This document shows, piece after piece, positions 29,446 to 44,037 of a stretch of DNA of 44,405 nucleotides. Under the pieces are notes generated by a model, which was not told where the DNA came from, did not search any database, and saw only the letters and a list, made by a program, of their open reading frames with translations. The stretch is from contig CALYRM010000006.1 of the NCBI GenBank assembly GCA_945482995.1, forward strand, positions 1-44,405. The letters are read 5' to 3'. This DNA comes from an uncultured Clostridia bacterium (GTDB lineage: Bacteria > Bacillota > Clostridia > Christensenellales > CAG-1252). The stretch's first letter is position 1. Each line of letters begins with the position of its first letter. The translations under genes were made by a program, and so were the position numbers.

Positions 29446-30618
29446 ATGCAAAAATATTCATATGTTGCCCTTACCCCTGAGGGTAAGACAATAAAAGGAA
29501 CTATGATTGCTCAAAGTGATGAGGAGATCAAGCAGTTGGTTACCAAAAATGGTAACTATTGTTTGTCCTATACTCGTTTAAAAGACCAATCAAAGGAAAG
29601 CAAGCCCCTACCCCTAAAAGAACTAATAAATTTTTGTAGTCAGTTGGCTTCAATTATCCACGCAGGCGTTGCACTAGCAAACGCTCTTGATATGCTTTAC
29701 AGCAAAATGGAAAAAGGCAATTTGAAGACTATTACAGGAAATTTACTAGAATTAGTTCAAAAGGGTAATTCTTTGTCTGACGCAATCGCAAAGCAAGGGA
29801 AAGCCTTTCCGTCGATTATGCTCAATATGATTAAAGCAGGCGAGCAAACGGGCGATTTAGACAAAGCCCTAAACAAACTCTCAGAACAATTTGACAAGCA
29901 AATGAAACTCAAAAACCAAATTAAGAGCGCAATGAACTATCCTAAAATATTGGGATTGATTACTGCGGTCGTTTTTGTCATTTTGGCAATGTTTGTTTTG
30001 CCGAAAATGGTTTCGGGAATGAATGAAGTACCTGTTATGACTCAAATACTATTGAACATTGCAAACTTCCTTTTGGATTATTGGTACATTGTAGTTTTGT
30101 TAATTGTTATTTTGTATTTCACCTTGCCGATTATCAAAAACATTCCCAAGGTTAGGTTTGCTCTTGATAAAATGAAATTGAAAATTCCCAAGGTTGGCAA
30201 ACTTATTCGCAAGACGTACACGGCAACTTTTGCAAGAACGTTGGCAACCCTTTATGAGGGCGGTATATCAATAGTAGACGCAATCACAATGGCAACAGGC
30301 ACAGTTGGCAACAAGTACGTAACCAAGCAAATGGACGAAGCGATATTCAGAATAAAAAAGGGCGAGCCTATGAGTAAAGCGATAGCTGCCGCCGACTGCT
30401 TTGATCCGTTGTTGACGAGCATGTTGTTTGTCGGTGAAGAGTCGGGCGTATTGGGCGACGTCTTAAACAGAGTCGCAAATTATTTTGACGAAGAAGCCGA
30501 CACGGCGGTTAAGGGTTTGACGGCGCTTATCAACCCTGCAATGATGGTGGTAATGGCTGGAGTAATCGGCGTATTGCTATTGGCAGTCGTTCAACCTATG
30601 TTTAACTTCGATGTATAA
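29446..30618 (+). CDS. pilC: Type IV pilus / type II secretion inner-membrane platform protein (PilC/GspF family)
   Basis: 390 aa; 'FCSQLASIIHAGVALANALDML...GEQTGDLDKALNKLSEQFDKQ...FARTLATLYEGGISIVDAI...GEESGVLGDVLNRVANYFDEE' are hallmark GspF/PilC repeats with three TM segments. Confidence 0.95.
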   Translation: MQKYSYVALTPEGKTIKGTMIAQSDEEIKQLVTKNGNYCLSYTRLKDQSKESKPLPLKELINFCSQLASIIHAGVALANALDMLYSKMEKGNLKTITGNLLELVQKGNSLSDAIAKQGKAFPSIMLNMIKAGEQTGDLDKALNKLSEQFDKQMKLKNQIKSAMNYPKILGLITAVVFVILAMFVLPKMVSGMNEVPVMTQILLNIANFLLDYWYIVVLLIVILYFTLPIIKNIPKVRFALDKMKLKIPKVGKLIRKTYTATFARTLATLYEGGISIVDAITMATGTVGNKYVTKQMDEAIFRIKKGEPMSKAIAAADCFDPLLTSMLFVGEESGVLGDVLNRVANYFDEEADTAVKGLTALINPAMMVVMAGVIGVLLLAVVQPMFNFDV

Positions 30619-30631
30619 TAAGGAGTAAAAT

Positions 30632-31552
30632 ATGATTTGTATTTACATTAGTGATGAAAAAATCAAACTAATTGAGGGCGATGCAAGAGGAAACAGAATC
30701 ATAGTTCAAAGATTTTATGATATCAGCACCAAAGCAGGCTCATTAGAAAGTGGCGCAATCAAAGATACCGTAGTTTTCACGCAAGCGCTTCAAGACTGTA
30801 TGCAAGCAACCAATATGAAAGCCGGCAAGGCTTGTTACGTGTTGGATAACAGCAGAATTGTTTTCCGTGAAATGATTGTTCCGGACGTACCCGACGCGAA
30901 GCTAAAAAAGGTTATCCAATCCGAACTGTTTTCGGAGTCAAAGAGCCAAAACACCACGCTTGACTATATCGTGTTAGAAAAGTTCAAGGACGAGAAAAAG
31001 ATTAACAAGCTTCGTATAATGGTTACATATATCAATAACGAGATTATTGACAATTTATCGGTATCAGCCGTTGAGTTGGGCTTAACTCCCGTTGCTCTTG
31101 ATATTGCTCCAAACACAATGAGCAAGTTAATTTCGCTATATAATTCAAACGGCGCAGACAGAAAACTTTTGAGTAAAACCTTTGTGCTTTTGGACTTTAA
31201 AGATACCTTTATTTCGATTTACGTATTTGACGGCTACAAAACACAATTCACCAAAAGCTCGGTTCTCTATGTTTCCGACCCCGAACATCCGGATTTAGAT
31301 TATTTGGCAAGTGAAATGTCCACTCAGTTAAATAGCACTATAAGATACTATCAATCCAGAAATCCCGACAAAACGGTTGAAGCGGTTTATGTTACAGGCA
31401 ACGCTCTTGTATTAGATCAAATTATGCAAGCGTTAGCCGATTCGGTAAATCTTATGATTTCCCACTTGCCACTGCCGTCATTTGTCAAGGGAATGGAGCT
31501 AATCGATTATAACGCCTTTACTTGCGCTTTAGGCACCTTTATAAGGAGATAA
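30632..31552 (+). CDS. pilM: PilM-like actin-fold pilus assembly protein
   Basis: 306 aa; N-terminal 'MICIYISDEKIKLIEGD', 'FREMIVPDVPDAKLKKVIQSEL', 'LGLTPVALDIAPNTMSKL', with syntenic position after pilC and before PilN/PilO-like genes. Confidence 0.8.
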   Translation: MICIYISDEKIKLIEGDARGNRIIVQRFYDISTKAGSLESGAIKDTVVFTQALQDCMQATNMKAGKACYVLDNSRIVFREMIVPDVPDAKLKKVIQSELFSESKSQNTTLDYIVLEKFKDEKKINKLRIMVTYINNEIIDNLSVSAVELGLTPVALDIAPNTMSKLISLYNSNGADRKLLSKTFVLLDFKDTFISIYVFDGYKTQFTKSSVLYVSDPEHPDLDYLASEMSTQLNSTIRYYQSRNPDKTVEAVYVTGNALVLDQIMQALADSVNLMISHLPLPSFVKGMELIDYNAFTCALGTFIRR

Positions 31553-31556
31553 GACT

Positions 31557-32720
31557 ATGGGATACAAAAGTGATATAAACTTATTTAAAGCGGCAGGTGG
31601 TTCGGTTGCCAAGGGCAAAAAAATGCCCATTACAAAAAAGTTATTAATATGCTTAGTAGCCGTTATCTTTATTTGCGGTGCAGTAATCGGGTTGCTAACG
31701 TATATGAATTCCGCTCAAACAAAGGAGTTGAAAAAGTTAGTAGATCAAAAGAATTCATATGAATTTACCAAGAGATTAACTCAATCCCTGATAAAGGATT
31801 ATAACAACGTTACCGCTTCCAAGGATTCGTTGTCGTTCATAGAATATTATAATGAATTAAGTTCGGGACTATTTTCACCACTAACCGAAGAAGAGCTTAC
31901 CGCAATCAAGGGCTATATGTTGAATAACGGTTATACAACCGAGTTTAGCTTTACAGACGTTGCCGAAGAGCTCAAAAAGCAAATAGCGCTAGCGCCCTAT
32001 AAAATCGATTCTAATGACGATAATGCTGCCCTTCTCCAAGAAAGCTACAAGTTACTTTATAGCGCAATATCGAGTATGATTGAGTATCCTGAGCTATTTG
32101 CAGATTTACCCACACAAAACGAAAACGATATTTGGTATTCATATTTTAGAGGTCAATTCGTAGCAGTTGTACAGGGTGCAGGCGATTATAGATTATTACT
32201 TCAAGGCTTAACCGATAGCGCTCAAACGGGAGTAAATCCATTCCTAGGTTTGGATATGGAAACCGATACAGGGGCTGAAAAGCTAACCGAAGCCTATGGA
32301 ATAACCGTTAATATCGAGGGTGTTGATTATACCGTAATAAGTATCACGAGAAGAACAATAGTTGAAAGACTATTTGACGCTATCGAAGATAGAATAAAAA
32401 TTGCTCTTGAAAATGAATACGACCAAACGGGCGTTGAATATAAGTACTCAATAGGCAAGCTGGAAGTAAACACAAGAGAAAATACCATTTCCTTCCAAAT
32501 CAGAGCCACTCAAAGCGAAGTATTCGGTTTAGAAGATATCGTGTACGCTATTGATGGCAGTCCGTTCTTCAAAGCGGAAAAAGATTTAGTGTTTGATTTT
32601 GAGGACGGAGCAAGCTTGCAAGAGGCCGAATTAGTCTTTACAATAGAGAATTACGCAAAGGACGCTATGCAAGAAATTGTCAAAACAATTTTTGCAAACA
32701 GTGAAACCGAAGGAGAATAA
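31557..32720 (+). CDS. PilN-like bitopic membrane protein
   Basis: 387 aa; short cytoplasmic N-terminus 'MGYKSDINLFKAAGG' (PilN-like INL motif), one TM helix 'LLICLVAVIFICGAVIGLLTYM', coiled start; 4 nt after pilM. Confidence 0.65.
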   Translation: MGYKSDINLFKAAGGSVAKGKKMPITKKLLICLVAVIFICGAVIGLLTYMNSAQTKELKKLVDQKNSYEFTKRLTQSLIKDYNNVTASKDSLSFIEYYNELSSGLFSPLTEEELTAIKGYMLNNGYTTEFSFTDVAEELKKQIALAPYKIDSNDDNAALLQESYKLLYSAISSMIEYPELFADLPTQNENDIWYSYFRGQFVAVVQGAGDYRLLLQGLTDSAQTGVNPFLGLDMETDTGAEKLTEAYGITVNIEGVDYTVISITRRTIVERLFDAIEDRIKIALENEYDQTGVEYKYSIGKLEVNTRENTISFQIRATQSEVFGLEDIVYAIDGSPFFKAEKDLVFDFEDGASLQEAELVFTIENYAKDAMQEIVKTIFANSETEGE

Positions 32721-32722
32721 TT

Positions 32723-33589
32723 ATGGAAACTTCATTAACTCAAAGAGATAAAGCCTTATTGTTGATATTGGGAATTATATTGATAGTTTTCGCTGCGGTT
32801 ATGATACCAAAATTTGGTATCTATGCGCTTATTTCTTCGCGAAGCGAAACTCAAGCGGCAATCAATAAACAAAAATCTGAGAATGAAACTTTATATATGG
32901 AGCTTGTATCAAGCGGTATTAGCGGTGCATATGCCGAAAGTGCAGCTATGGCTAAAAACTATTTGGAAAAAAGATTGCTTGCCGAAAAACACAATTTAGC
33001 TCTTTTGTCAAATTCAATTTGTCGTCAAGAATCCTTTGATACGGCTAAAAACTGGGTTTCTACAATGAAGTACAAGGGATACGTAGTAGGAGAGGATAGT
33101 TATTTTTCTAGCTTAAATCTTGCAAATCAAGTGGTAGTTCCCAATGACACATTGAGTTTAGACGATGTTAGTTATAACGTAAACAAATATGAATCGCCTG
33201 TTGAAGTTGTCCTATCTACCGAAATAGTATTTAGTTTTTCGTTAGATAATTGCTTGAACGTTGCAACGCTAAATGACTTAGCTGCAATGTTAGTTATGTC
33301 GTCTCAAGCCATTCGTCGTGGATCTTGTACTGTAACCGAATTTAATTATCAAAAAACATATGAAGACGCAGCAAAAGATAAGGTAACTGTTACAATAGCT
33401 GTCTATACCACAGTTAATGAAGAGTTGTCGGGCTATGCAAGTGAAATCTGCGAATGTCACTCTTGCGGATATGCGTATACCTTAGCTTGGTACAACACAC
33501 AGCTCGAAAACGGCGAGATTGATGGCGGAGTAAACGTAGTAACCTGTCCCGACTGTCAAAGCGAGTTGGACGGAACGACAATTGGATAG
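32723..33589 (+). CDS. PilO-like bitopic membrane protein with C-terminal Cys4+ zinc-ribbon-like motif
   Basis: 288 aa; TM 'ALLLILGIILIVFAAVMIPKFGIY' then coiled coil; C-terminus 'CECHSCGYAYTLAWYNTQLENGEIDGGVNVVTCPDCQSELDG'; 2 nt after the preceding gene. Confidence 0.65.
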   Translation: METSLTQRDKALLLILGIILIVFAAVMIPKFGIYALISSRSETQAAINKQKSENETLYMELVSSGISGAYAESAAMAKNYLEKRLLAEKHNLALLSNSICRQESFDTAKNWVSTMKYKGYVVGEDSYFSSLNLANQVVVPNDTLSLDDVSYNVNKYESPVEVVLSTEIVFSFSLDNCLNVATLNDLAAMLVMSSQAIRRGSCTVTEFNYQKTYEDAAKDKVTVTIAVYTTVNEELSGYASEICECHSCGYAYTLAWYNTQLENGEIDGGVNVVTCPDCQSELDGTTIG

Positions 33590-33604: not shown

Positions 33605-33753
33605 AATGAAATCCACCCATAATGTCATCCTGACTAGTATTGTCATCCTGAGCGGAACGAAGTGAAGTCGTAAGGATCTCATCCGCTTTCGCCATCCTTG
33701 ACCTGCCCGCGTCATCCTGAGCGTAGTGCAACGGAGTCGTAAGGATCTCATCC

Positions 33754-33884
33754 ACTCTTTGTTGGAACAAAGAATGAAATCTGCCTTGATTGGCAGATGA
33801 AATCCCTACAGGATGAAATCACTTCGTGATGAAATCCGCCTTTCATGCGGGTTTTGGACTTCGTGATTGTATAGTGTTGTGCAT
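33754..33884 (+). repeat. Hairpin-bead element copy 1
   Basis: TCTTTGTT-gg-AACAAAGA ATGAAATCTGCC-ttgatt-GGCAGAT GAAATCC-ctaca-GGAT GAAATCAC-ttc-GTGAT GAAATCCGC-ctttcat-GCGGG..., then ACTTCGTGATTGTATAGTGTTGTGCAT. Confidence 0.9.
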
Positions 33885-33945
33885 GTCATCCTTCGCCATA
33901 ATGTCATCCTGAGCGTAGTGCAACGGAGTCGTGAGGATCTCATCC

Positions 33946-34079
33946 ACTCTTTGTTAGTCCAACAAAGAATGAAATCTGCCTTGATTGGCAGATGAAATCC
34001 CTACAGGATGAAATCACTTCGTGATGAAATCCGCCTTTCATGCGGGTTTTGGACTTCGTGATTGTATAGTGTTGTGCAT
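33946..34079 (+). repeat. Hairpin-bead element copy 2
   Basis: 124 nt identical to copy 1 from AACAAAGAATG onward (33961-34084 vs 33766-33889); first-hairpin loop differs (agtcc vs gg). About 192 bp tandem offset. Confidence 0.9.
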
Positions 34080-34166
34080 GTCATTCTTACCCATATAACG
34101 TCATCCTGAGCGGAGTGTAACGAAGTCGTGAGGATCTCATCCACTTCGGTCGACATGACGGAACAA

Positions 34167-34248: not shown

Positions 34249-37200
34249 ATGGAACTCAAAAGACTAAAAATATTAAAGAATAATAAAGGTGCTGCTCTGA
34301 TGTACACCATGATGTTCTTATTACTATTATCTGTAATAGTAGTATCTTTTAGTTTGATTTCTATCAATATGTATAAAACTACGGCTTATTCCGCCAATAA
34401 AACACAAAACTTTACGTTGGCAAAGGCGATAGGTCAAGCTTTCGCTCTTGAGCTTAGCGAAGACGTGGACGCAACCTCAATCGTTGCATATTTAGAGAAT
34501 AATACACAATATGCAAAAACGGTAAAGGGCTCTGCAAGCGTCGTTTTCGATCCTAAAGACGACAGCAAAAAATCTCAGATTAATCAAGCCTTAAAGGGAA
34601 CCGGATTGACTATAGACGATCTTGCCGAAATTAATTTGATAGCAGGATTGAAATTTTATTTTAAAATCACTTGTGCAAACTGCGGCGCTGTATTAGAGGA
34701 TATAAAAGATAGCTCGAATCGAGATAGCACGTTTTGCCAATCTTCGGTTTGTAGAGGCTTGCATAACGAAAAGAATATTAATAAAAAATATTTATATCTC
34801 GACGTCACCGTAAGCTATCATGGTGTGACAGAGGTTGTAACTACGGTATTTACATATTTGGATAAAGAAGACTTTACCCAAACAATGTACGATTTATTTA
34901 GTGTATATAACATTTATTCCACTAGCCCAAAAGATATGCAATTTGATTTTGCAGCTCCTGACGATATCGGCGGTGTTCAACCGAACGTATACTTGTATAA
35001 CGGCGTAGACAGCGAGGAAGAGGGTTACGGCACAACCACAAGAGAAACCTATAAGCTTGAAGAAAGTATTAAAGCCAATTTGACAAGCACGGGTGACGTT
35101 ACGATAACGAGCTCGAGTGGAGATATAAGAAGTATACTTGGAACTGTTACTTCTTATGGCGCAATGACTCTTGAAAGAGTAAATATCGGTAATGGAAGTA
35201 GCAGTAGCAATATTTATATAAGGAATTCACTCACCGTAAATTCCACTGCTAGGGTACATGGAAGTATATACGCAAGAAACACGGTTAAAATTACAGGTCC
35301 CAATTCCACTACTACTATGGTGGACGGCACTATCTATGCGCTCGGTAACGTAACCATCCAAAATTGTACAGTAGGTAGAATAATAGGCGGAGCTGGCTGT
35401 AATATTACACTTATTAATGCCAACTGTAATAGCATATCTACAGACGGAAGCGTTACTATTGACAAATCCACAGTTACAGGCAATGTGTATTGTGGCGACC
35501 TAACGATGAAATCAAGCGGAAGAGAGTCGAAGATTACAGGTAAAGCCGAGGTTAAAGGAAATCTTGTAATTGAATCGACGGATTCGGGCAAAAATACAAT
35601 AGGTAGCACGTCTAATCAAAATGTTATTAACGTAGGCGGTAACGCAACTTTTAAGGGTAATAGCTCCAAGGTCTCCGAAATACTCGGTAACGTCATTATA
35701 GCAGGTTCAATAAATTATAATAACAGCAAGTCTGTTACCAAAATAAACGGTAGCTTGCACGTAAAAGGAGATATACCGGTTACTATTGGCGAAGAAAGAA
35801 TTAACGCATGTTATCTATCTGCACTCGAGGTTACAGGCGACGTTCTTTTGTCGTCGGGCAAGGGTTGCATTCCGCTTTTTGGTAAAGAAAACGGCTCGAC
35901 CTCTGAGGCTAAAACCGTGATTGGCGGTTTGTTGACAGTCTATACCGATATGCTTATTGGCGATGAGCTAGGCGGTATTATCGATGGCGAGGAGAAATCA
36001 ACAGGCGTTTCTTACACCTTTGTAGATGGCACTCCCAAATACGTCAATTTGAATGGGGCAACCATTAACAAGCTTTATATCAAAAAGAAAGGTTCAACGA
36101 GCGACATAACTCAGGCGCTATTACAAAATGGTACGATAGTATCAGGAATTGAAGCCGAACAAATAATTGTATCGGGTATTACAATCGAAGAAAACTGCGT
36201 TGTAATGGCAGAGGGAATAAACGGCGCATTTGTTGCCGTAGATAACTCCAAATTAAAGGGGAAAATCGTAGCAAATAGAATGTTTTCCTTGCACGAGGGA
36301 AGTATTTTATATGCTACCCAAAACGGTTTCGTTCACGTTTCAGGAACGGAAACGGAAAAAGCTTTGGCTTATATCGACGGCGAAATTGAAGGAGAACTTG
36401 TTGTCGGTCAAAAGATTACGGTTTCTCAAGCGAACGGTGAATTAAAGATTAAGTCAAAAGCAGTTTTGCATGGAAATTCTTTAGATAAAGATATTTATAT
36501 AAACGGCGACCTAACTGTTGAAGCCCATTCTATGGCGGATATAACAAACAATCCCGAACAATTTGCGCCGAGATTAACAACCGAAAACAACAATGGAAGT
36601 AGAATCTACCTTTCCACAGGCACTGCGCATTTAAACGGGTGGGTTTACGATTTTTATGTAAATAACGCTGAAGTCATAATGCAGGACGAAATCGAAGGTA
36701 TGGCAGGCAAGCCGTATATCAAGGGTACTACGTTTGATTCGTCAGACTTCGTAACAATAGGTGAAAACGGTCTTATAAATTCCGAGGGCGCTACCTATAC
36801 AAACGATAACGTAATAGTATACGTCTATAAAACTCCTATGGAGCCATTGGGCGACTTGACTATTTCGGGTACTCTTGTAATAAAGAAAGGCGAACGTCTA
36901 GAATGTAATTCTCTAAAAGTTAAACGAATAATTACAGATGATATCAACGAAGAATTGACGCCGTCTAATTTTGATTCTGCTAAAACAAGAATTGTTAATC
37001 GCGTCAACAGCTTCAATTTTAATAGCGATAGTAGAGTTGTAGGTATAACCGTAAATGGTGATACCCAAATCAATCAAACTGTTTCGGACAAGATAATGAT
37101 TACAGGCTGCACCTTTAACGGTTGGCTAAAACTGAAAAACGTATCTGGAACGGTCATTATTGACAGGAGTGAAGTAACAGGTGCAAGATATACGACATAT

Positions 37201-40200
37201 GCAAGCAACGACACCAAATCCAACAATGCTTATAAGGGTTGTTTGGATGTCGGAAGCGCCAATTTGCATCTAGAAAACAGTTTCGTAGGCGGAACAGCGA
37301 GCAAAAACAACGTGACTCAAGATTCTTCGATACCATATCAAGGTAACGTTTACACCAATGGCGTTTTTACAATGAACGGCGGTCAAGTATATGGCACCGT
37401 TTACTGCTCGTATGCAACTGATCTAATAGACAACAAAATAAGCGGCGGATTAGTTATGTCGACCACTTCTTCGGTATCGGTTAATTGGTCTCCAACGTTT
37501 ATCAACAAGTTTATTTACGGACCAAAGGTAAAGGCAACCGTAACAAGTGGCACGTTGTGCGGTACGTCACCATCTTCAACAGCAACAGCGAATAATCTCA
37601 ATACAAATTCTTATTTTATCCGCTTGCAGGACTTAACTATGAGCGATAGCGCGGTTATTGCCGAATACGTTTCGGTATTCGTAGACGATGGCGCTGACAC
37701 CAAGCTTGCAGGCAAAAATATAGGGAACGTTTATGCAAAGACTGCTAAGTTGACAATCTACGTTGCCGATTCACTATCTACGACTAAGATTGCAGGGTAC
37801 ATGTACTGCGTAGGACAACTACAATATGCGGACGGTTTAACTCCAACTGCCGCAAAGGGCTTATATGCTAAAAATACCACTATTCCGATAAGTGAAAACA
37901 ATATACCTTTTGAAAATATAAACGGAAACGTTGATATAGTAGGATCCTTAACCTTTGACGTTTCGTTTAATAACGTTACAGGTTACGTTTACGCACCCAA
38001 AGCTAATGTTACGCTTAATTCGACGGTAGAAGGCAATATAGAGGCGAACACGTTATATGTAACGCCTAAGTCCCAAACCGAGATAAAGGGCAATGTGCTT
38101 GTAAACAGTCTATACGTTTATACAGATAGCTACAAGGTACATTTCCTTGAAAATGTTAAAACCTCTTTGTTAGCGGTAAATTTGAAACTAAAATCTACCG
38201 GTGGCGACATAACGCTTACAACAAAAATCGATAATCCCGACGGACAATTTGCACCCACCGTATCGGGTGGAAGCTACGTATCGTTTTATGAAAACGTTTA
38301 TGTTTCCAAGGGAACATCGGGTAGCGGCAGAGCATTCTTGAGATGCTGTACTTTTGAAAAACGCAACGTCAAAAATAGTAATAACGGCGCAACGCTCTAT
38401 GCAGATAGAGGAGTTTACGCAAGCACCGTTAATTTTTACGGAGCAGGCTACGTAAGTACTCAACAGCACTGCTTCACCACAGGACTTGGCGTATACAACA
38501 TTTCGTCGTCAAATTATTCAACCAACTATGGTTCTATTGTGGCGGGTATTGCAAAGAGCGAAACAACGAGCTACGGTTTGTATCTTTCTGACACGAATTG
38601 CTATTCGAATGTAGTATTGTTATCTAGTCAATCGGCGTACTTGACCAAAACAACTCTTGGTGAAAGGGCAAATGCAGATTCGATGTCTGCCGATAGAAAA
38701 AAGAGCTATCAAAAATACTATAGCTTTGGCGGCGACGTAACAATGAATGAAACTCATATCGAGAGCATTACTTCGACCAATTCCGCCGACCCCGGTGCAT
38801 ACACATATGTCAACGTAGTTGGCAATCTAACGCTACAAAACAATAGCTACATAGGTTCTTCTTATTCAACCGAACGTGTACACGCACACACGGGCTTTAA
38901 GGGCGTTTACGTCGCAAAAAAATTGACAATCGATAGTGGCTGTACAATTCGTCTTAATATTTATTGTAAGGGCGCCTTAAACAACAATGGTTCTATTCAA
39001 TTAAACATTGAAAAGAAAATAGAATGGAGAGATACCAAGGGTTGGGGCTGGACTGACGATTGGGAATATATGGAATCAATATATACTTGCGGTGGCGTGG
39101 TTTATTCAAATGGTTATAGTGGCTCGGGATATTTGTCTTTAGACTCATATACAAAAAGCTACCATATGGAGAAAAATGGTAAATGGCAGAAATTTTATCT
39201 AAAAGAGAATGAAGGTCATAATACTATTGCAGGTGTTATCGATAAGCCTGAAAGAAAAAAGGATTACTCTTTCTGCACCCATAATAGTGCAAATCGTAAT
39301 ACCAATTCCTCAAGCGCAGAGAGTTGTCCTTTTGCACCCAATAAGATAACTTCAACAACTCTTGCAGGGAATCTAGTAAATTGCGGTGTGTCGAGAGACA
39401 ACTCTACTCCTACCGCTCCAACGAAAGACAAATTGCAGGGGTTTGTCGGTGTAGAATGGAATACAACTGAAGCTACCGAGGGAAAATATAAAACTCCTTT
39501 AAGCATTATCGCTTTCTCACACGCAACGACTATTAAAATAGAAGAGGTGACGCTTGTATCTAAAACATCACTGCCATCCACACAACTAGACACAAGCAAC
39601 CGAACGTATTGGAAACCGCAGGCAATTCCTTTAAGGTGGTATTTGCCAACTCAAACAACGGCAGGCGAACCTGTTAGCCTCAATCCTAACGCTAACAATA
39701 TGATGACCGTTGCACAAAAGAAACTTGGACAATCCATAGACGCACTTGAAGCTTGTCAACAAAATTTCAAAGAATTTCGCGAATTAAATGTTTGGGAATG
39801 GATTAAGGGTGACGCGATTAAAATAGCAAAGGAATTGAAAAACAACGCAAAAAGTTTCTTTAAGAATCTGCCAACTTTATTTACGCCGTCATCTTCATAT
39901 TTGGGCTTAAAGTTTAAAAATGATGCCGACGCAAAATTCTATAGAGTTACGGCAACCAAAGCTTCAAGCGTTATGAGTGACGCTAATGGTAAGGATTTGC
40001 TTGTAATTACAAGACGTTGTATGGTTGTCAATGGCACATTCCCGTCGGGGAAGTTGTTGAACGACCTTATCGAGCATGTAAATTGGAATCCTGATTGGGT
40101 TATTCCGATAAACGTTAAATTTAACCAAAGACCCGTAGGACTTGTATTTTTCAATAGCGGTGTAGTGCCATATAGCGTCTTTGACGGCAAGAATACCGAA

Positions 40201-41127
40201 TATCGTAAATATACCAAGGAAAGTACCGAAAAAGACAGCGCGGGTAGGTGGTATTGGGGCGACGACGGCTCCGAGGGCTGGTACGGCACGGCAACCCCCT
40301 CAAACGACGTAACTTGGACGTTCTTTACTTGTGAAGATCCAACAAGACCATACACGAGCAAAGCAAAGGATTTGCATATCATTTTACCGAAAAATGCAAA
40401 AATGGTATGGGAAAAAGATAAGGATAGCTGTCTAAATATTATTGGTAATGGCAGAGTCTTCTTGTATCTACAAGAAGGTACCGATATCAAGATTATAGGT
40501 AACGGCTTTTCGAATTGGATTCACGACGAATATATGAGCGGAATAGACAGTTGGCTAGATCAATGGAGAGGCGAAGACGCTACCTACAACGTATTTGGCG
40601 GAGTTAGATACGTTCAAACTGAAGGATCTGGAATTGACGAAACCACGTATTATAAGAATGGTCAAGTTGTTATGGACGAAGCTGCATATAATAGCGGACA
40701 CTTCCAATTACAGCCTCGTATCTACATTATAGGTACCGGTGGAAACATTAATTTTGAAGTACAAGACTTCCAAACCGCAGCCTATGTTTATATGCCATCA
40801 GGCTATACGTATGATGATGGTGCAGGTAAAAATACATTCAAAATAAGTTCCAACCACAACGCAGCAGGTTCGGGAAATTGGGATGTATACGGAATTTACG
40901 TATGTGATGACTTTGAATATGGCAACGGCACGGGTGCAAAGGTTAGATACTATAAAACAGCGCCCGATTTGTCCAATACCGTATTTAAGTATACGAAGAA
41001 CGGATATACAACCACTTCGATAGGAGACAATCGATCATCTTATCAGCTTGCTGAGTTTTGGGATTATCCGACCGACCTACCCGTTTCGAGTATGGATTGG
41101 TACTATAGAGGTATCGCAATCAGCTAA
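34249..41127 (+). CDS. Giant PilX/GspK-like minor pilin with beta-helix / polymer-forming (bactofilin-like) body, 2,292 aa
   Basis: N-terminus 'MELKRLKILKNNKGAALMYTMMFLLLLSVIVVSFSLISINMYKTTAYSANKTQNFTLAKAIG' resembles a class III/prepilin-like signal lacking Glu5 (PilX/GspK style). The body is a long run of short beta-strand units such as 'GNVTIQNCTVGRIIGGAGCNITLINANCNSISTDGSVTIDKSTVTGNVYCGDLTMKSSG'. It sits within the pilus operon. Confidence 0.8.
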   Translation: MELKRLKILKNNKGAALMYTMMFLLLLSVIVVSFSLISINMYKTTAYSANKTQNFTLAKAIGQAFALELSEDVDATSIVAYLENNTQYAKTVKGSASVVFDPKDDSKKSQINQALKGTGLTIDDLAEINLIAGLKFYFKITCANCGAVLEDIKDSSNRDSTFCQSSVCRGLHNEKNINKKYLYLDVTVSYHGVTEVVTTVFTYLDKEDFTQTMYDLFSVYNIYSTSPKDMQFDFAAPDDIGGVQPNVYLYNGVDSEEEGYGTTTRETYKLEESIKANLTSTGDVTITSSSGDIRSILGTVTSYGAMTLERVNIGNGSSSSNIYIRNSLTVNSTARVHGSIYARNTVKITGPNSTTTMVDGTIYALGNVTIQNCTVGRIIGGAGCNITLINANCNSISTDGSVTIDKSTVTGNVYCGDLTMKSSGRESKITGKAEVKGNLVIESTDSGKNTIGSTSNQNVINVGGNATFKGNSSKVSEILGNVIIAGSINYNNSKSVTKINGSLHVKGDIPVTIGEERINACYLSALEVTGDVLLSSGKGCIPLFGKENGSTSEAKTVIGGLLTVYTDMLIGDELGGIIDGEEKSTGVSYTFVDGTPKYVNLNGATINKLYIKKKGSTSDITQALLQNGTIVSGIEAEQIIVSGITIEENCVVMAEGINGAFVAVDNSKLKGKIVANRMFSLHEGSILYATQNGFVHVSGTETEKALAYIDGEIEGELVVGQKITVSQANGELKIKSKAVLHGNSLDKDIYINGDLTVEAHSMADITNNPEQFAPRLTTENNNGSRIYLSTGTAHLNGWVYDFYVNNAEVIMQDEIEGMAGKPYIKGTTFDSSDFVTIGENGLINSEGATYTNDNVIVYVYKTPMEPLGDLTISGTLVIKKGERLECNSLKVKRIITDDINEELTPSNFDSAKTRIVNRVNSFNFNSDSRVVGITVNGDTQINQTVSDKIMITGCTFNGWLKLKNVSGTVIIDRSEVTGARYTTYASNDTKSNNAYKGCLDVGSANLHLENSFVGGTASKNNVTQDSSIPYQGNVYTNGVFTMNGGQVYGTVYCSYATDLIDNKISGGLVMSTTSSVSVNWSPTFINKFIYGPKVKATVTSGTLCGTSPSSTATANNLNTNSYFIRLQDLTMSDSAVIAEYVSVFVDDGADTKLAGKNIGNVYAKTAKLTIYVADSLSTTKIAGYMYCVGQLQYADGLTPTAAKGLYAKNTTIPISENNIPFENINGNVDIVGSLTFDVSFNNVTGYVYAPKANVTLNSTVEGNIEANTLYVTPKSQTEIKGNVLVNSLYVYTDSYKVHFLENVKTSLLAVNLKLKSTGGDITLTTKIDNPDGQFAPTVSGGSYVSFYENVYVSKGTSGSGRAFLRCCTFEKRNVKNSNNGATLYADRGVYASTVNFYGAGYVSTQQHCFTTGLGVYNISSSNYSTNYGSIVAGIAKSETTSYGLYLSDTNCYSNVVLLSSQSAYLTKTTLGERANADSMSADRKKSYQKYYSFGGDVTMNETHIESITSTNSADPGAYTYVNVVGNLTLQNNSYIGSSYSTERVHAHTGFKGVYVAKKLTIDSGCTIRLNIYCKGALNNNGSIQLNIEKKIEWRDTKGWGWTDDWEYMESIYTCGGVVYSNGYSGSGYLSLDSYTKSYHMEKNGKWQKFYLKENEGHNTIAGVIDKPERKKDYSFCTHNSANRNTNSSSAESCPFAPNKITSTTLAGNLVNCGVSRDNSTPTAPTKDKLQGFVGVEWNTTEATEGKYKTPLSIIAFSHATTIKIEEVTLVSKTSLPSTQLDTSNRTYWKPQAIPLRWYLPTQTTAGEPVSLNPNANNMMTVAQKKLGQSIDALEACQQNFKEFRELNVWEWIKGDAIKIAKELKNNAKSFFKNLPTLFTPSSSYLGLKFKNDADAKFYRVTATKASSVMSDANGKDLLVITRRCMVVNGTFPSGKLLNDLIEHVNWNPDWVIPINVKFNQRPVGLVFFNSGVVPYSVFDGKNTEYRKYTKESTEKDSAGRWYWGDDGSEGWYGTATPSNDVTWTFFTCEDPTRPYTSKAKDLHIILPKNAKMVWEKDKDSCLNIIGNGRVFLYLQEGTDIKIIGNGFSNWIHDEYMSGIDSWLDQWRGEDATYNVFGGVRYVQTEGSGIDETTYYKNGQVVMDEAAYNSGHFQLQPRIYIIGTGGNINFEVQDFQTAAYVYMPSGYTYDDGAGKNTFKISSNHNAAGSGNWDVYGIYVCDDFEYGNGTGAKVRYYKTAPDLSNTVFKYTKNGYTTTSIGDNRSSYQLAEFWDYPTDLPVSSMDWYYRGIAIS

Positions 41128-41129
41128 AC

Positions 41130-41600
41130 GTCATTATCAATGTCATTATCAATGTCATTCCGACCGAAGTGGAGGAATCTCATCCTTGTAAATGTCATTC
41201 TGAGCGAAGCGTAGCGTAGTCGTAAGGATCTATTCCTTGTTCGTCATCCTGAGCGAAGCGTAGCGTAGTCGAAGGATCTCATCCACTCTTTGTTAGAACA
41301 AAGAATGAAATCTGCCTTGATTGGCAGATGAAATCCCTACAGGATGAAATCACTTCGTGATGAAATCCGCCTTTCATGCGGGTTTTGGACTTCGTGATTG
41401 TATAGTGTTGTGCATGTCATTCTTACCCATATAACGTCATCCTGAAAGCGTTGCGAGTGGAGTCGTGAGGATCTAATCCTTGTTAGCATCCTCGAACTGC
41501 CAAAATGTCATTATCAATGTCATTCCGAGCGTAGTCGAGGAATCTAATCCTTGTTACGTCATGTCGAGCGTAGGCGAGACATCTCCCTACAAGCACAAAC
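41130..41600 (+). repeat. Cluster of palindromic repeats (GTCATTCC/GTCATCCT/GTCATGTC alleles)
   Basis: Units near 41151, 41194, 41241, 41435, 41518 and 41558; preceded by a tandem 12-mer TCATTATCAATG x2. Confidence 0.88.
41285..41415 (+). repeat. Hairpin-bead element copy 3
   Basis: 41297-41445 is identical over 149 nt to 33961-34109 (copy 2 and downstream flank). Confidence 0.92.
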
Positions 41601-41629
41601 TTCTTTCAACGCAAACAAACACTTCATCT

Positions 41630-41684
41630 CAATTAATTGCACATTAAAGCAGTCATTTAACGTACTACAAACAAAGAAAAAGAT
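41630..41684 (+). promoter_or_regulatory. Leader shared with the second prepilin gene
   Basis: CAATTAATTGCACATTAAA (41630-41648), then 36 nt to ATG 41685; the same 19-mer at the same distance precedes ATG 42589. Confidence 0.6.
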
Positions 41685-42107
41685 ATGATTAAACGAAGAC
41701 TTAAAAAATTAATTAAAAATAAGAGGGGATTCACCCTTTTGGAATGTATTACCGCAATAACCATTATCGGCATAATGAGTGGGGCTATGATGGCGCTTTT
41801 TTCGCAGGGTATCAAATTTATATCTAAGGCGCAAAAGTTAGATGAAATTTCGCAAGAAGCGTCTAGTATAGTTATTATGGGCAATGAAAATTCCACTTCG
41901 GGCGTAATAGGTGATGACGGAGATAAGTTCTACGTTAAGGGGCTCCCCGTATTGATAGAGTTTAATATCAGCGTAGGAAGTGCAGGCTTAATTCAGTTAG
42001 CGCCAAAGGAATTTAATTTCCAAGCAGGCGTTGTAATCAATAATGGAACTCAAACAAAGGTGGTATATTACGATATTACACCCGAGGAGCTGAACGACAT
42101 TAAATAA
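41685..42107 (+). CDS. Type IV prepilin (pseudopilin)-like protein
   Basis: 140 aa; 'MIKRRLKKLIKNKRG^FTLLECITAITIIGIMSGAMMALF' is a prepilin peptidase site with Glu5 and a hydrophobic helix. Confidence 0.92.
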   Translation: MIKRRLKKLIKNKRGFTLLECITAITIIGIMSGAMMALFSQGIKFISKAQKLDEISQEASSIVIMGNENSTSGVIGDDGDKFYVKGLPVLIEFNISVGSAGLIQLAPKEFNFQAGVVINNGTQTKVVYYDITPEELNDIK

Positions 42108-42120
42108 AAGTGCAATCCAA

Positions 42121-42515
42121 ATGTCATTCTGAAAGCGTTAATGTCATTCCGAGCGTAGTCGAGGAATCTCATCCACTTTCGTCATTCTGAGCGTAGTCGA
42201 GGGACCTCATCCTTATAAATGTCATCCTCAAGCGAGAGCAACGGAGTCGTGAGGATCTCCTCCACTCTTTGTTGGAACAAAGAATGAAATCTGCCTTGAT
42301 TGGCAGATGAAATCCCTACAGGATGAAATCACTTCGTGATGAAATCCGCACATCAGCGGGTTTTGGACTTCGTGATTGTATAGTATTGTGCATGTCATTC
42401 TTACCCTATAACGTCATCCTCAAGCGAGAGCAACGGAGTCGTGAGAATCTAATTGACAGCACCGCTGTCATCCCGAGCGTAGTCGAGGGACCTCACTACA
42501 AGCACCGACTCTTTC
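42121..42515 (+). repeat. Cluster of palindromic repeats around hairpin-bead copy 4
   Basis: Units near 42140, 42180, 42221, 42413 and 42469. Confidence 0.88.
42264..42393 (+). repeat. Hairpin-bead element copy 4 (last hairpin loop variant)
   Basis: Same series of hairpins; the final bead is CCGC-acatca-GCGG instead of CCGC-ctttcat-GCGG, so the stem is kept and the loop changed. Confidence 0.9.
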
Positions 42516-42533
42516 AAAGCTAACAGCTCGTCA

Positions 42534-42588
42534 CAATTAATTGCACATTAAAAAACTAATTTACAGTACTGTAAAAAAGCTTATAGAT
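42534..42588 (+). promoter_or_regulatory. Second copy of the prepilin leader
   Basis: CAATTAATTGCACATTAAA (42534-42552), then 36 nt to ATG 42589. Confidence 0.6.
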
Positions 42589-43278
42589 ATGAAAAGACGT
42601 AGATTTACTAAAATTTTGAAGAATAAGAGGGGTTTTTCCCTTGTAGAATTGATTGTTGCCGTTTTGCTAATGGCAATGATTTCTACTTCTCTATCTTCGA
42701 TTTTAGGTTCTACTCTTAGTCTTTATAATAGGGCTGAAATGAACTCTCTATTATACAATGTGAGTCAAAAACTTCATATAGCGTTAGATAACGAGCTGTT
42801 GACCGCACGTGATTTAACTCTTTATGAACGCGCTCAAAATAAGCCTGAAACACTTGTTAAAAAAGAATATCAATACTTTATTCAAAAAGATTCCGACGGA
42901 TATATCTACGTATATTCTTTTAACACTGTAACCAATAAAACAGTTAAAGAACATATTTTGCTGTCCGACAAATCTTACAGGGGAGCCACGGTAAAAGAAT
43001 TATATTTTACTTATAGCTCGGTAAGTGATAAGCTCAATTATTCGGATACTGTACTAAAAGATGAATGTATGCGTATTGTGAATATCACCACAACGATAGT
43101 GAAAAACGGAGTAGAATATACACATACCTCAACTATAAGATTATATAATATGGCTGTGTATGGCACTGAACTTAAAATCAAACTTTCGTCAAGCTCGACC
43201 GCCGTTGTGCCTAATTATGTAAGAAGCGTTAAATTTTTATCGGTTATGTACTACGCAACGCAGTTTTTTGAGGTATAA
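42589..43278 (+). CDS. Type IV prepilin-like protein (start revised from TTG 42541 to ATG 42589)
   Basis: 'MKRRRFTKILKNKRG^FSLVELIVAVLLMAMISTSLSSILGS'; prepilin signal with Glu5. Leader alignment with the first prepilin supports ATG 42589. Confidence 0.9.
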   Translation: MKRRRFTKILKNKRGFSLVELIVAVLLMAMISTSLSSILGSTLSLYNRAEMNSLLYNVSQKLHIALDNELLTARDLTLYERAQNKPETLVKKEYQYFIQKDSDGYIYVYSFNTVTNKTVKEHILLSDKSYRGATVKELYFTYSSVSDKLNYSDTVLKDECMRIVNITTTIVKNGVEYTHTSTIRLYNMAVYGTELKIKLSSSSTAVVPNYVRSVKFLSVMYYATQFFEV

Positions 43279-43284
43279 TGACCT

Positions 43285-44037
43285 ATGATTGATTACTTTA
43301 TAGGTGCAATTATATTTATTTACGGTTTGATTTTCGGTAGCTTTCTCAACGTATTGATATATAGAATCCCGAGAAAGAATTTCTTTTCAAGTGTTAGCTC
43401 ATACTGCCCCGAATGTAAACATAAATTGGCTTGGTATGACCTTATTCCTGTGTTTAGTTATATATTTTTAAGGGGTAGATGTCGCTATTGTAAAGAAAAA
43501 ATTAGCGTCAGATATCCGATTGTTGAACTTTCGAATGCAGTATTATGGGTGCTTTCGTTCGTTTTTTTTAGAAACTCTATTTCAGATATTATTTTATCGG
43601 CAGTATTATTTAGCTTGCTTATTGTTATTGCCGGAATTGATTTAGATACCCAAGAAATACCAAACGGATTGGTTATAGCCGTTTTGGTTCTTGGCGTTAT
43701 TCGATTCATTCTATCATTTTTCTTTGGTGATATGCTATGGTTCGAGCATTTAATCGGCGCTGCTTGTATCAGTATTCCTTTTTTAATTATAGCCTTAATA
43801 ACGGGTGGCGGTATTGGTGGCGGAGATATCAAGCTTTGCTTTGCGGTAGGATTGTTTTTGGGCTGGAAACTAACCCTAATGGGTACCTTCCTCGGAATAA
43901 TCTTAGCAGGAATAATCGCCTTGGTAATCATGATAAAGCACAAAAAATCGGGCACTATTCCATTAGCGCCATCGCTATGTTTCGGCTTTGCAACGGCGCT
44001 GTTGTTCGGAAATATGATATTAGAATTGATATTCTAA
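43285..44037 (+). CDS. pilD: Prepilin peptidase, A24 family (PilD/GspO)
   Basis: 250 aa; 'GLIFGSFLNVLIYRIPR', zinc motif CPEC...CRYC, catalytic Asp motifs 'GIDLDTQEIPNG' and 'GGGDIKL'. Confidence 0.96.
   Translation: MIDYFIGAIIFIYGLIFGSFLNVLIYRIPRKNFFSSVSSYCPECKHKLAWYDLIPVFSYIFLRGRCRYCKEKISVRYPIVELSNAVLWVLSFVFFRNSISDIILSAVLFSLLIVIAGIDLDTQEIPNGLVIAVLVLGVIRFILSFFFGDMLWFEHLIGAACISIPFLIIALITGGGIGGGDIKLCFAVGLFLGWKLTLMGTFLGIILAGIIALVIMIKHKKSGTIPLAPSLCFGFATALLFGNMILELIF

Follow-up and report, generated by a model that had tools for sequence, protein, structure and literature searches.

The window, a stretch of 44,405 nucleotides from an uncultured Clostridia bacterium (contig CALYRM010000006.1, positions 1 to 44,405), carries a type IV pilus operon in the order pilC-M-N-O-giant-prepilin-prepilin-pilD, with the contig ending just past pilD. 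The subject here is the gene called the giant, an open reading frame (ORF) at 34249-41127 (+) that starts with ATG, has a GAGG stretch directly 5' of that ATG, and encodes 2,292 amino acids (aa). A first-pass annotation, made from the letters of the DNA, had read it as a minor pilin with a PilX/GspK-like N-terminus mounted on a very large β-helix. The features along it are given below; confidences of AlphaFold2 (AF2) models are predicted local distance difference test (pLDDT) scores.

34249..34290 (+): leader peptide of the class III prepilin type, 14 aa with a Gly end, read from the sequence; G14 does not vary among 14 homologs
34282..34461 (+): long helix predicted at the N-terminus (residues 12-71), PilX_N-like, with Tyr at +5 (DSSP on the AF2 model; hhalign over residues 1-71, probability 96.1)
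34462..35043 (+): conserved N-terminal head region, residues 72-265, from conserved alignment columns; AF2 confidence low
35044..35928 (+): predicted β-solenoid, first stretch, residues 266-560; AF2 block pLDDT 69-96, weak Bactofilin match at 309-372
36046..36528 (+): predicted β-rich, solenoid-like stretch, residues 600-760; AF2 block pLDDT 63-89
36799..37188 (+): predicted β-rich, solenoid-like stretch, residues 851-980; AF2 block pLDDT 77-88
37696..40044 (+): second half of the body, divergent, from about residue 1150 to 1932; AF2 pLDDT 45, 31-38% identity to the ortholog in genome G004
40045..41124 (+): C-terminal domain, conserved, from about residue 1933 to 2292; an alignment of 16 homologs has 32 invariant columns, and neither Pfam nor PDB gave a match

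The N-terminus reads MELKRLKILKNNKG/AALMYTMMFLLLLSVIVVSF, where the slash marks the cleavage point (KNNKG/AALMY in context): a basic class III leader of 14 residues with Gly at -1, then a hydrophobic helix with Tyr, not Glu, at +5. Both G14 and this Tyr (Y19) are invariant across 14 aligned homologs, so the prepilin-type N-terminus lacking Glu5 is present as first described. The position next to pilM is occupied, in other families of the order, by proteins of ~280-860 aa, several with PilX_N (best 1.2e-6); proteins at this position in these sister families also carry Bactofilin, FapA or DUF7305. Comparing the N-terminal profile of the giants to the sister-family PilX-type proteins with hhalign gives a probability of 96.1% over residues 1-71, and comparing it to a separate set of 28 proteins drawn from DUF7305 hits (most of them PilX-like) gives 97.2%, versus 0.7% for a PilO control and 74%, over the helix only, for a PilV-like prepilin. 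Matches of 96-97% against such controls therefore place the giants in the PilX/GspK class and not among the Glu5 pilins, and the helix did not turn out to be an anchor unrelated to pilins. Membership of the giant in the PilX/GspK class rests on leader, missing Glu5, profile match and operon position, and the class of its N-terminus is well supported.

The AF2 model of residues 1-1150 (13 alignment rows, mean pLDDT 69) has a helix at 12-71, followed by a poorly defined head to about residue 260 (strands near 92-97, 131-138 and 181-202, pLDDT only about 35-55), and then successive short strands in solenoid fashion at 266-560, ~600-760 and ~851-980. This model supports a solenoid in much of the first half of the body. 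The β-helix body proposed earlier is supported for these three stretches, within the part that could be modelled, and is left without a usable model (pLDDT 45) over the second half; no homology was detected between the two halves. The top Foldseek matches for the 1-1150 model are β-helix proteins (Hbp, HK620 tailspike, Ag43, PL6 lyases), none reaching E 0.001. The list for the second-half model opens with a Caldicellulosiruptor tapirin, whose E of 1.2 carries no weight as evidence. The bactofilin-like strands of the first reading agree with weak Bactofilin matches, 29.9 bits in one ortholog, but in the window protein the match (residues 309-372) scores 17.3 bits, under the Pfam gathering cut-off of 27.9, and the giant fails as a Bactofilin on that score. 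A search for a catalytic domain found no Pfam, NCBIfam or PDB-sequence match for the giant; an enzymatic body was rejected on these grounds, and the substrate-degrading tip once suggested is without support.

The last ~350 aa of the giant make up a separate conserved domain that was overlooked in the earlier annotation. It matches no known family in Pfam and nothing among PDB sequences. A DUF7305 identity, suggested by the pattern, was tried and is not supported: hhalign against the same 28 proteins from DUF7305 hits gives a probability of 16% (E 0.0016, 44 columns), which is not significant, and Pfam gives no DUF7305 match to the domain. Conservation of both the N and the C ends would fit a solenoid inserted in the pilin sheet, with the C-terminus returning to the head.

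An initial search of 61 genomes gave matches in 17, all from one family. A profile of the C-terminal domain matches 17 of 20 genomes of this family; an 18th (G018) matches by its N-terminus, and the two remaining genomes, which gave no match, have a completeness of 77-81%. The profile of the C-terminal domain has no match in 277 genomes belonging to other families of the order, nor in a further 391 genomes drawn at class level, a set that partly overlaps the order. By these profile searches, the giant is shown to be restricted to one family. A scan of named genomes with the single protein as query found nothing, while a scan with the C-terminal alignment yielded 15 named loci; the records are metagenome-assembled genomes titled Clostridia or Christensenella sp., several of them from goat, yak and buffalo rumen and from roe deer cecum. 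One close ortholog pair (about 2,830 codons) has a dN/dS ratio (ω) of 0.21 overall, 0.11-0.16 in the ends and 0.19-0.25 in the body, and the window protein is 49-62% identical to its G004 ortholog in the ends versus 23-38% in the body. A chance ORF, an ORF fusion and an assembly artefact are ruled out by the presence of full-length orthologs in independent genomes and by the ω of 0.21. The gene is real at its annotated size, is constrained along its whole length, and is under purifying selection.

Complete orthologs measure about 1,800 to 3,053 aa, versus at most 911 aa for the longest PilX_N open frame among the matches listed from 399 genomes of the phylum, in a survey limited to recognisable PilX_N proteins, which a giant too divergent for PilX_N (as here) would escape. 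Within that scope the exceptional size holds up. PilX_N proteins of ~900 aa from one genus (locus L168, 2417-5113, in G598; others in G501, G574 and G641) are the longest recognisable outside the window's family among the matches listed. Four longer DUF7305 frames elsewhere were considered as possible counter-examples on size; the three in which the start could be read (1,133-1,547 aa) were rejected, since each opens with a signal peptide of the Sec type and not with a pilin helix. A second, different very large pilin occurs in another family of the order (locus L093, 6466-11331, in G072), a prepilin of 1,621 aa whose N-terminus is canonical, with GFTLVE (N_methyl 1.1e-8). Among the papers searched, there was no report of a giant PilX-type pilin.

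The giant lies between a PilO-like gene and two N_methyl prepilin genes, as the first-pass annotation had it, and the same order is seen in relatives. Its neighbourhood with minor prepilins, PilD and PilB is syntenic there, with the order kept in genera g1 and g3. The other genes of the operon are:

29446..30618 (+): pilC, platform protein (T2SSF 6.5e-56)
30632..31552 (+): pilM (PilM_2 4.4e-8)
31557..32720 (+): PilN-like gene, by position; order kept in relatives, no Pfam match above cut-off
32723..33589 (+): PilO-like gene, by position; order kept in relatives, no Pfam match above cut-off
41685..42107 (+): minor prepilin 1, GFTLLE (N_methyl 3.2e-7)
42541..43278 (+): minor prepilin 2, GFSLVE (N_methyl 1.3e-6); the true start may be downstream of the listed TTG
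43285..44037 (+): pilD prepilin peptidase (A24_N_bact 5.3e-35, Peptidase_A24 2.4e-16)

Seven genomes of the family were checked for the rest of the machinery. A PilB-size ATPase (~560 aa) is found in 7/7, a PilT-size ATPase (~356 aa) in 6/7, and a secretin in 0/7, a combination that fits a monoderm and possibly retractile pilus. Several pilus proteins of genus g1 have CxxC zinc-ribbon-like inserts that are absent from most homologs; the sites are residues ~141-169 of the giant (34669-34755), the C-terminus of the PilO-like protein (about 33450-33580), and the C-terminal domain in locus L025. Dispersed intergenic repeats (GTCATCCTGAGCG..GGATCTCATCC) lie between operon genes at 33642-34159, 41139-41648 and 42128-42552, with companion units of 113-135 nucleotides that are 92-98% identical between copies. 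Most of the window (about 64%) is taken up by a BspA/LRR_5 leucine-rich repeat (LRR) gene at 2-28678 (+), open at its 5' end and encoding at least 9,558 aa. It lies directly upstream of pilC, a position conserved in about ten relatives. Complete copies of 9,581-10,283 aa with lipobox-like N-termini are found in G008, G003, G004 and G012 (L114-L119, L122, L123 with L098, L023, L021, L031).

A capping pilin is usually a small protein; it has to prime assembly in the membrane and go out at the head of the filament. It would appear, at a probability that we put at roughly 57%, that the giant is such a subunit: a capping minor pilin of the PilX/GspK class, belonging to the type IVa-like pilus of a secretin-free bacterium, with an oversized β-solenoid body set between a conserved pilin-type N-terminal module and the C-terminal domain. 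The prepilin would enter the membrane via Sec and be cleaved after Gly14 by the operon's PilD. Lacking Glu5, it would cap the filament instead of occupying an internal position, and would form a priming tip complex with the two adjacent minor prepilins; growth driven by the PilB ATPase would then push the giant out first, through the wall. The body could serve as an extended rod whose ligand-binding surfaces, carried at the tip, mediate adhesion or capture, and the PilT-size ATPase would be available for retraction. A tip location is suggested by the missing Glu5, the operon position (between the PilO-like gene and minor prepilins), and sheer bulk, and an adhesive or presenting role is plausible by analogy.

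Several points weigh against this proposal. Pfam PilX_N (PF14341) has no direct match at E <= 1 to the window protein or to 14 N-termini, a match of that kind being a marker of sensitivity and the profile comparison the stronger test. The pilin head is modelled at low confidence, the AF2 model of residues 1143-2292 (15 rows, pLDDT 45) is unusable, and Foldseek gives no match for the AF2 models at E <= 0.001. In favour of it, the giant probably replaces ordinary PilX in the family, since a PilX profile found no PilX of ordinary size in five family genomes (its matches are the giant, in three genomes, or canonical prepilins); because the same profile missed two known giants, and hence could miss an ordinary PilX too, this absence is suggestive, not final. 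Processing, tip location, rod length and adhesive role are steps that we infer.

The same features can be put together in other ways. The N-terminal helix could be a membrane anchor only, with the body crossing the wall as a surface protein and no filament involved. The missing Pfam PilX_N match and the low-confidence pilin head would suit such a protein, and bacteria commonly have very large, rod-like proteins at their surface; the invariant prepilin-type cleavage context, the profile relationship to PilX-type proteins, and the conserved place among minor prepilins and pilD all argue otherwise, and we consider an anchored protein of this type rather unlikely. Placement along the shaft, as a modular pilin inserted at intervals, draws on the view that a body location of modular pilins is possible given a flexible linker (PMC8179133), but the giant has no Glu5 and its bulky body is attached close to the helix, which makes this arrangement very improbable.

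Other alternatives keep the giant at the tip and change what it does there. It may be an adaptor rather than an adhesin, its rod mainly carrying a partner, most likely the ~10,000-aa LRR lipoprotein, in the manner of CofB-CofJ or of minor pilins and PilY1. The conserved LRR gene upstream of pilC speaks for this, as does the precedent of CofB, an adapter for the secreted CofJ (PMC8179133); the lipobox, in contrast, predicts an LRR protein tethered to the membrane rather than pilus cargo, and an adaptor seems unlikely. Capture of DNA for transformation would suit the architectural idea common to the giant and ComZ, which binds DNA (PMC6561018), as well as the short versions found at the same operon position in relatives within the order. 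Sequence similarity to solved structures is not detected, however, and DNA binding alone would hardly account for a body far longer than the ~380-residue solenoid of ComZ, so a DNA receptor is quite unlikely. A bolder form of the capping-pilin proposal, which we consider unlikely, is a family-specific pilus whose solenoid rod tip of 30-65 nm crosses or projects past the Gram-positive wall and has co-evolved with the LRR lipoprotein as a two-giant capture system, its reach coming from the tip protein itself and not from filament growth alone. The length of 30-65 nm is arithmetic: each coil in the part between the two conserved ends is assumed to take ~20 aa and to add 0.48 nm, and the second half is taken as solenoid too.

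If the giant is a capping pilin, a type IV machine is able to begin assembly with a very large cap and to export it (1,800-3,050 aa, apparently the only PilX-type subunit of the family). The long rod may give the pilus the means to reach, or keep hold of, something distant, and the system would provide a handle on attachment by uncultured rumen and gut Clostridia. The modular-pilin idea, as seen in ComZ and in the PilB and PilC pilins, would extend well past the sizes met in the genome survey made here.

Known systems share parts of this plan. The PilX_N proteins with Bactofilin/FapA or DUF7305 bodies, from the same order and phylum, are like the giant in having a helix without Glu5, the slot beside pilM, and a solenoid-like or DUF7305 body; they differ in reaching at most 911 aa among the matches listed, and no relation of their C-terminal parts to the C-terminal domain of the giants was detected. 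Minor-pilin tip complexes are described in review as capped by a subunit without Glu5, and the capping pseudopilins GspK and PilK-PilX resemble the giant in this and in being encoded with other minor prepilins (PMC10191384), whereas GspK is a small protein with an α-helical insert and no solenoid (PMC8179133). Among modular adhesive pilins, PilB and PilC of Streptococcus sanguinis, modelled at the tip, likewise graft a functional module onto a pilin in a monoderm, but their modules are vWA or lectin domains (PMC8179133). The survey of modular pilins required the N-terminal methylation motif (PMC8179133), which the giants do not match. ComZ of Thermus thermophilus is a GspK-like pilin that has the plan of a pilin module plus a large β-solenoid, and the tip is argued to be the only place where it fits (PMC6561018). 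In the giant this plan would correspond to the predicted solenoid at 266-560 and two further stretches, with a pilin head of low confidence and nothing modelled past ~980. ComZ differs in the length of its solenoid, in binding DNA, and in belonging to a secretin-bearing diderm, whose competence pilus it serves; the giant showed no sequence similarity to PDB entries. The giant is best read as a much enlarged variant of the solenoid-bearing tip pilin, one that would function after the manner of ComZ.

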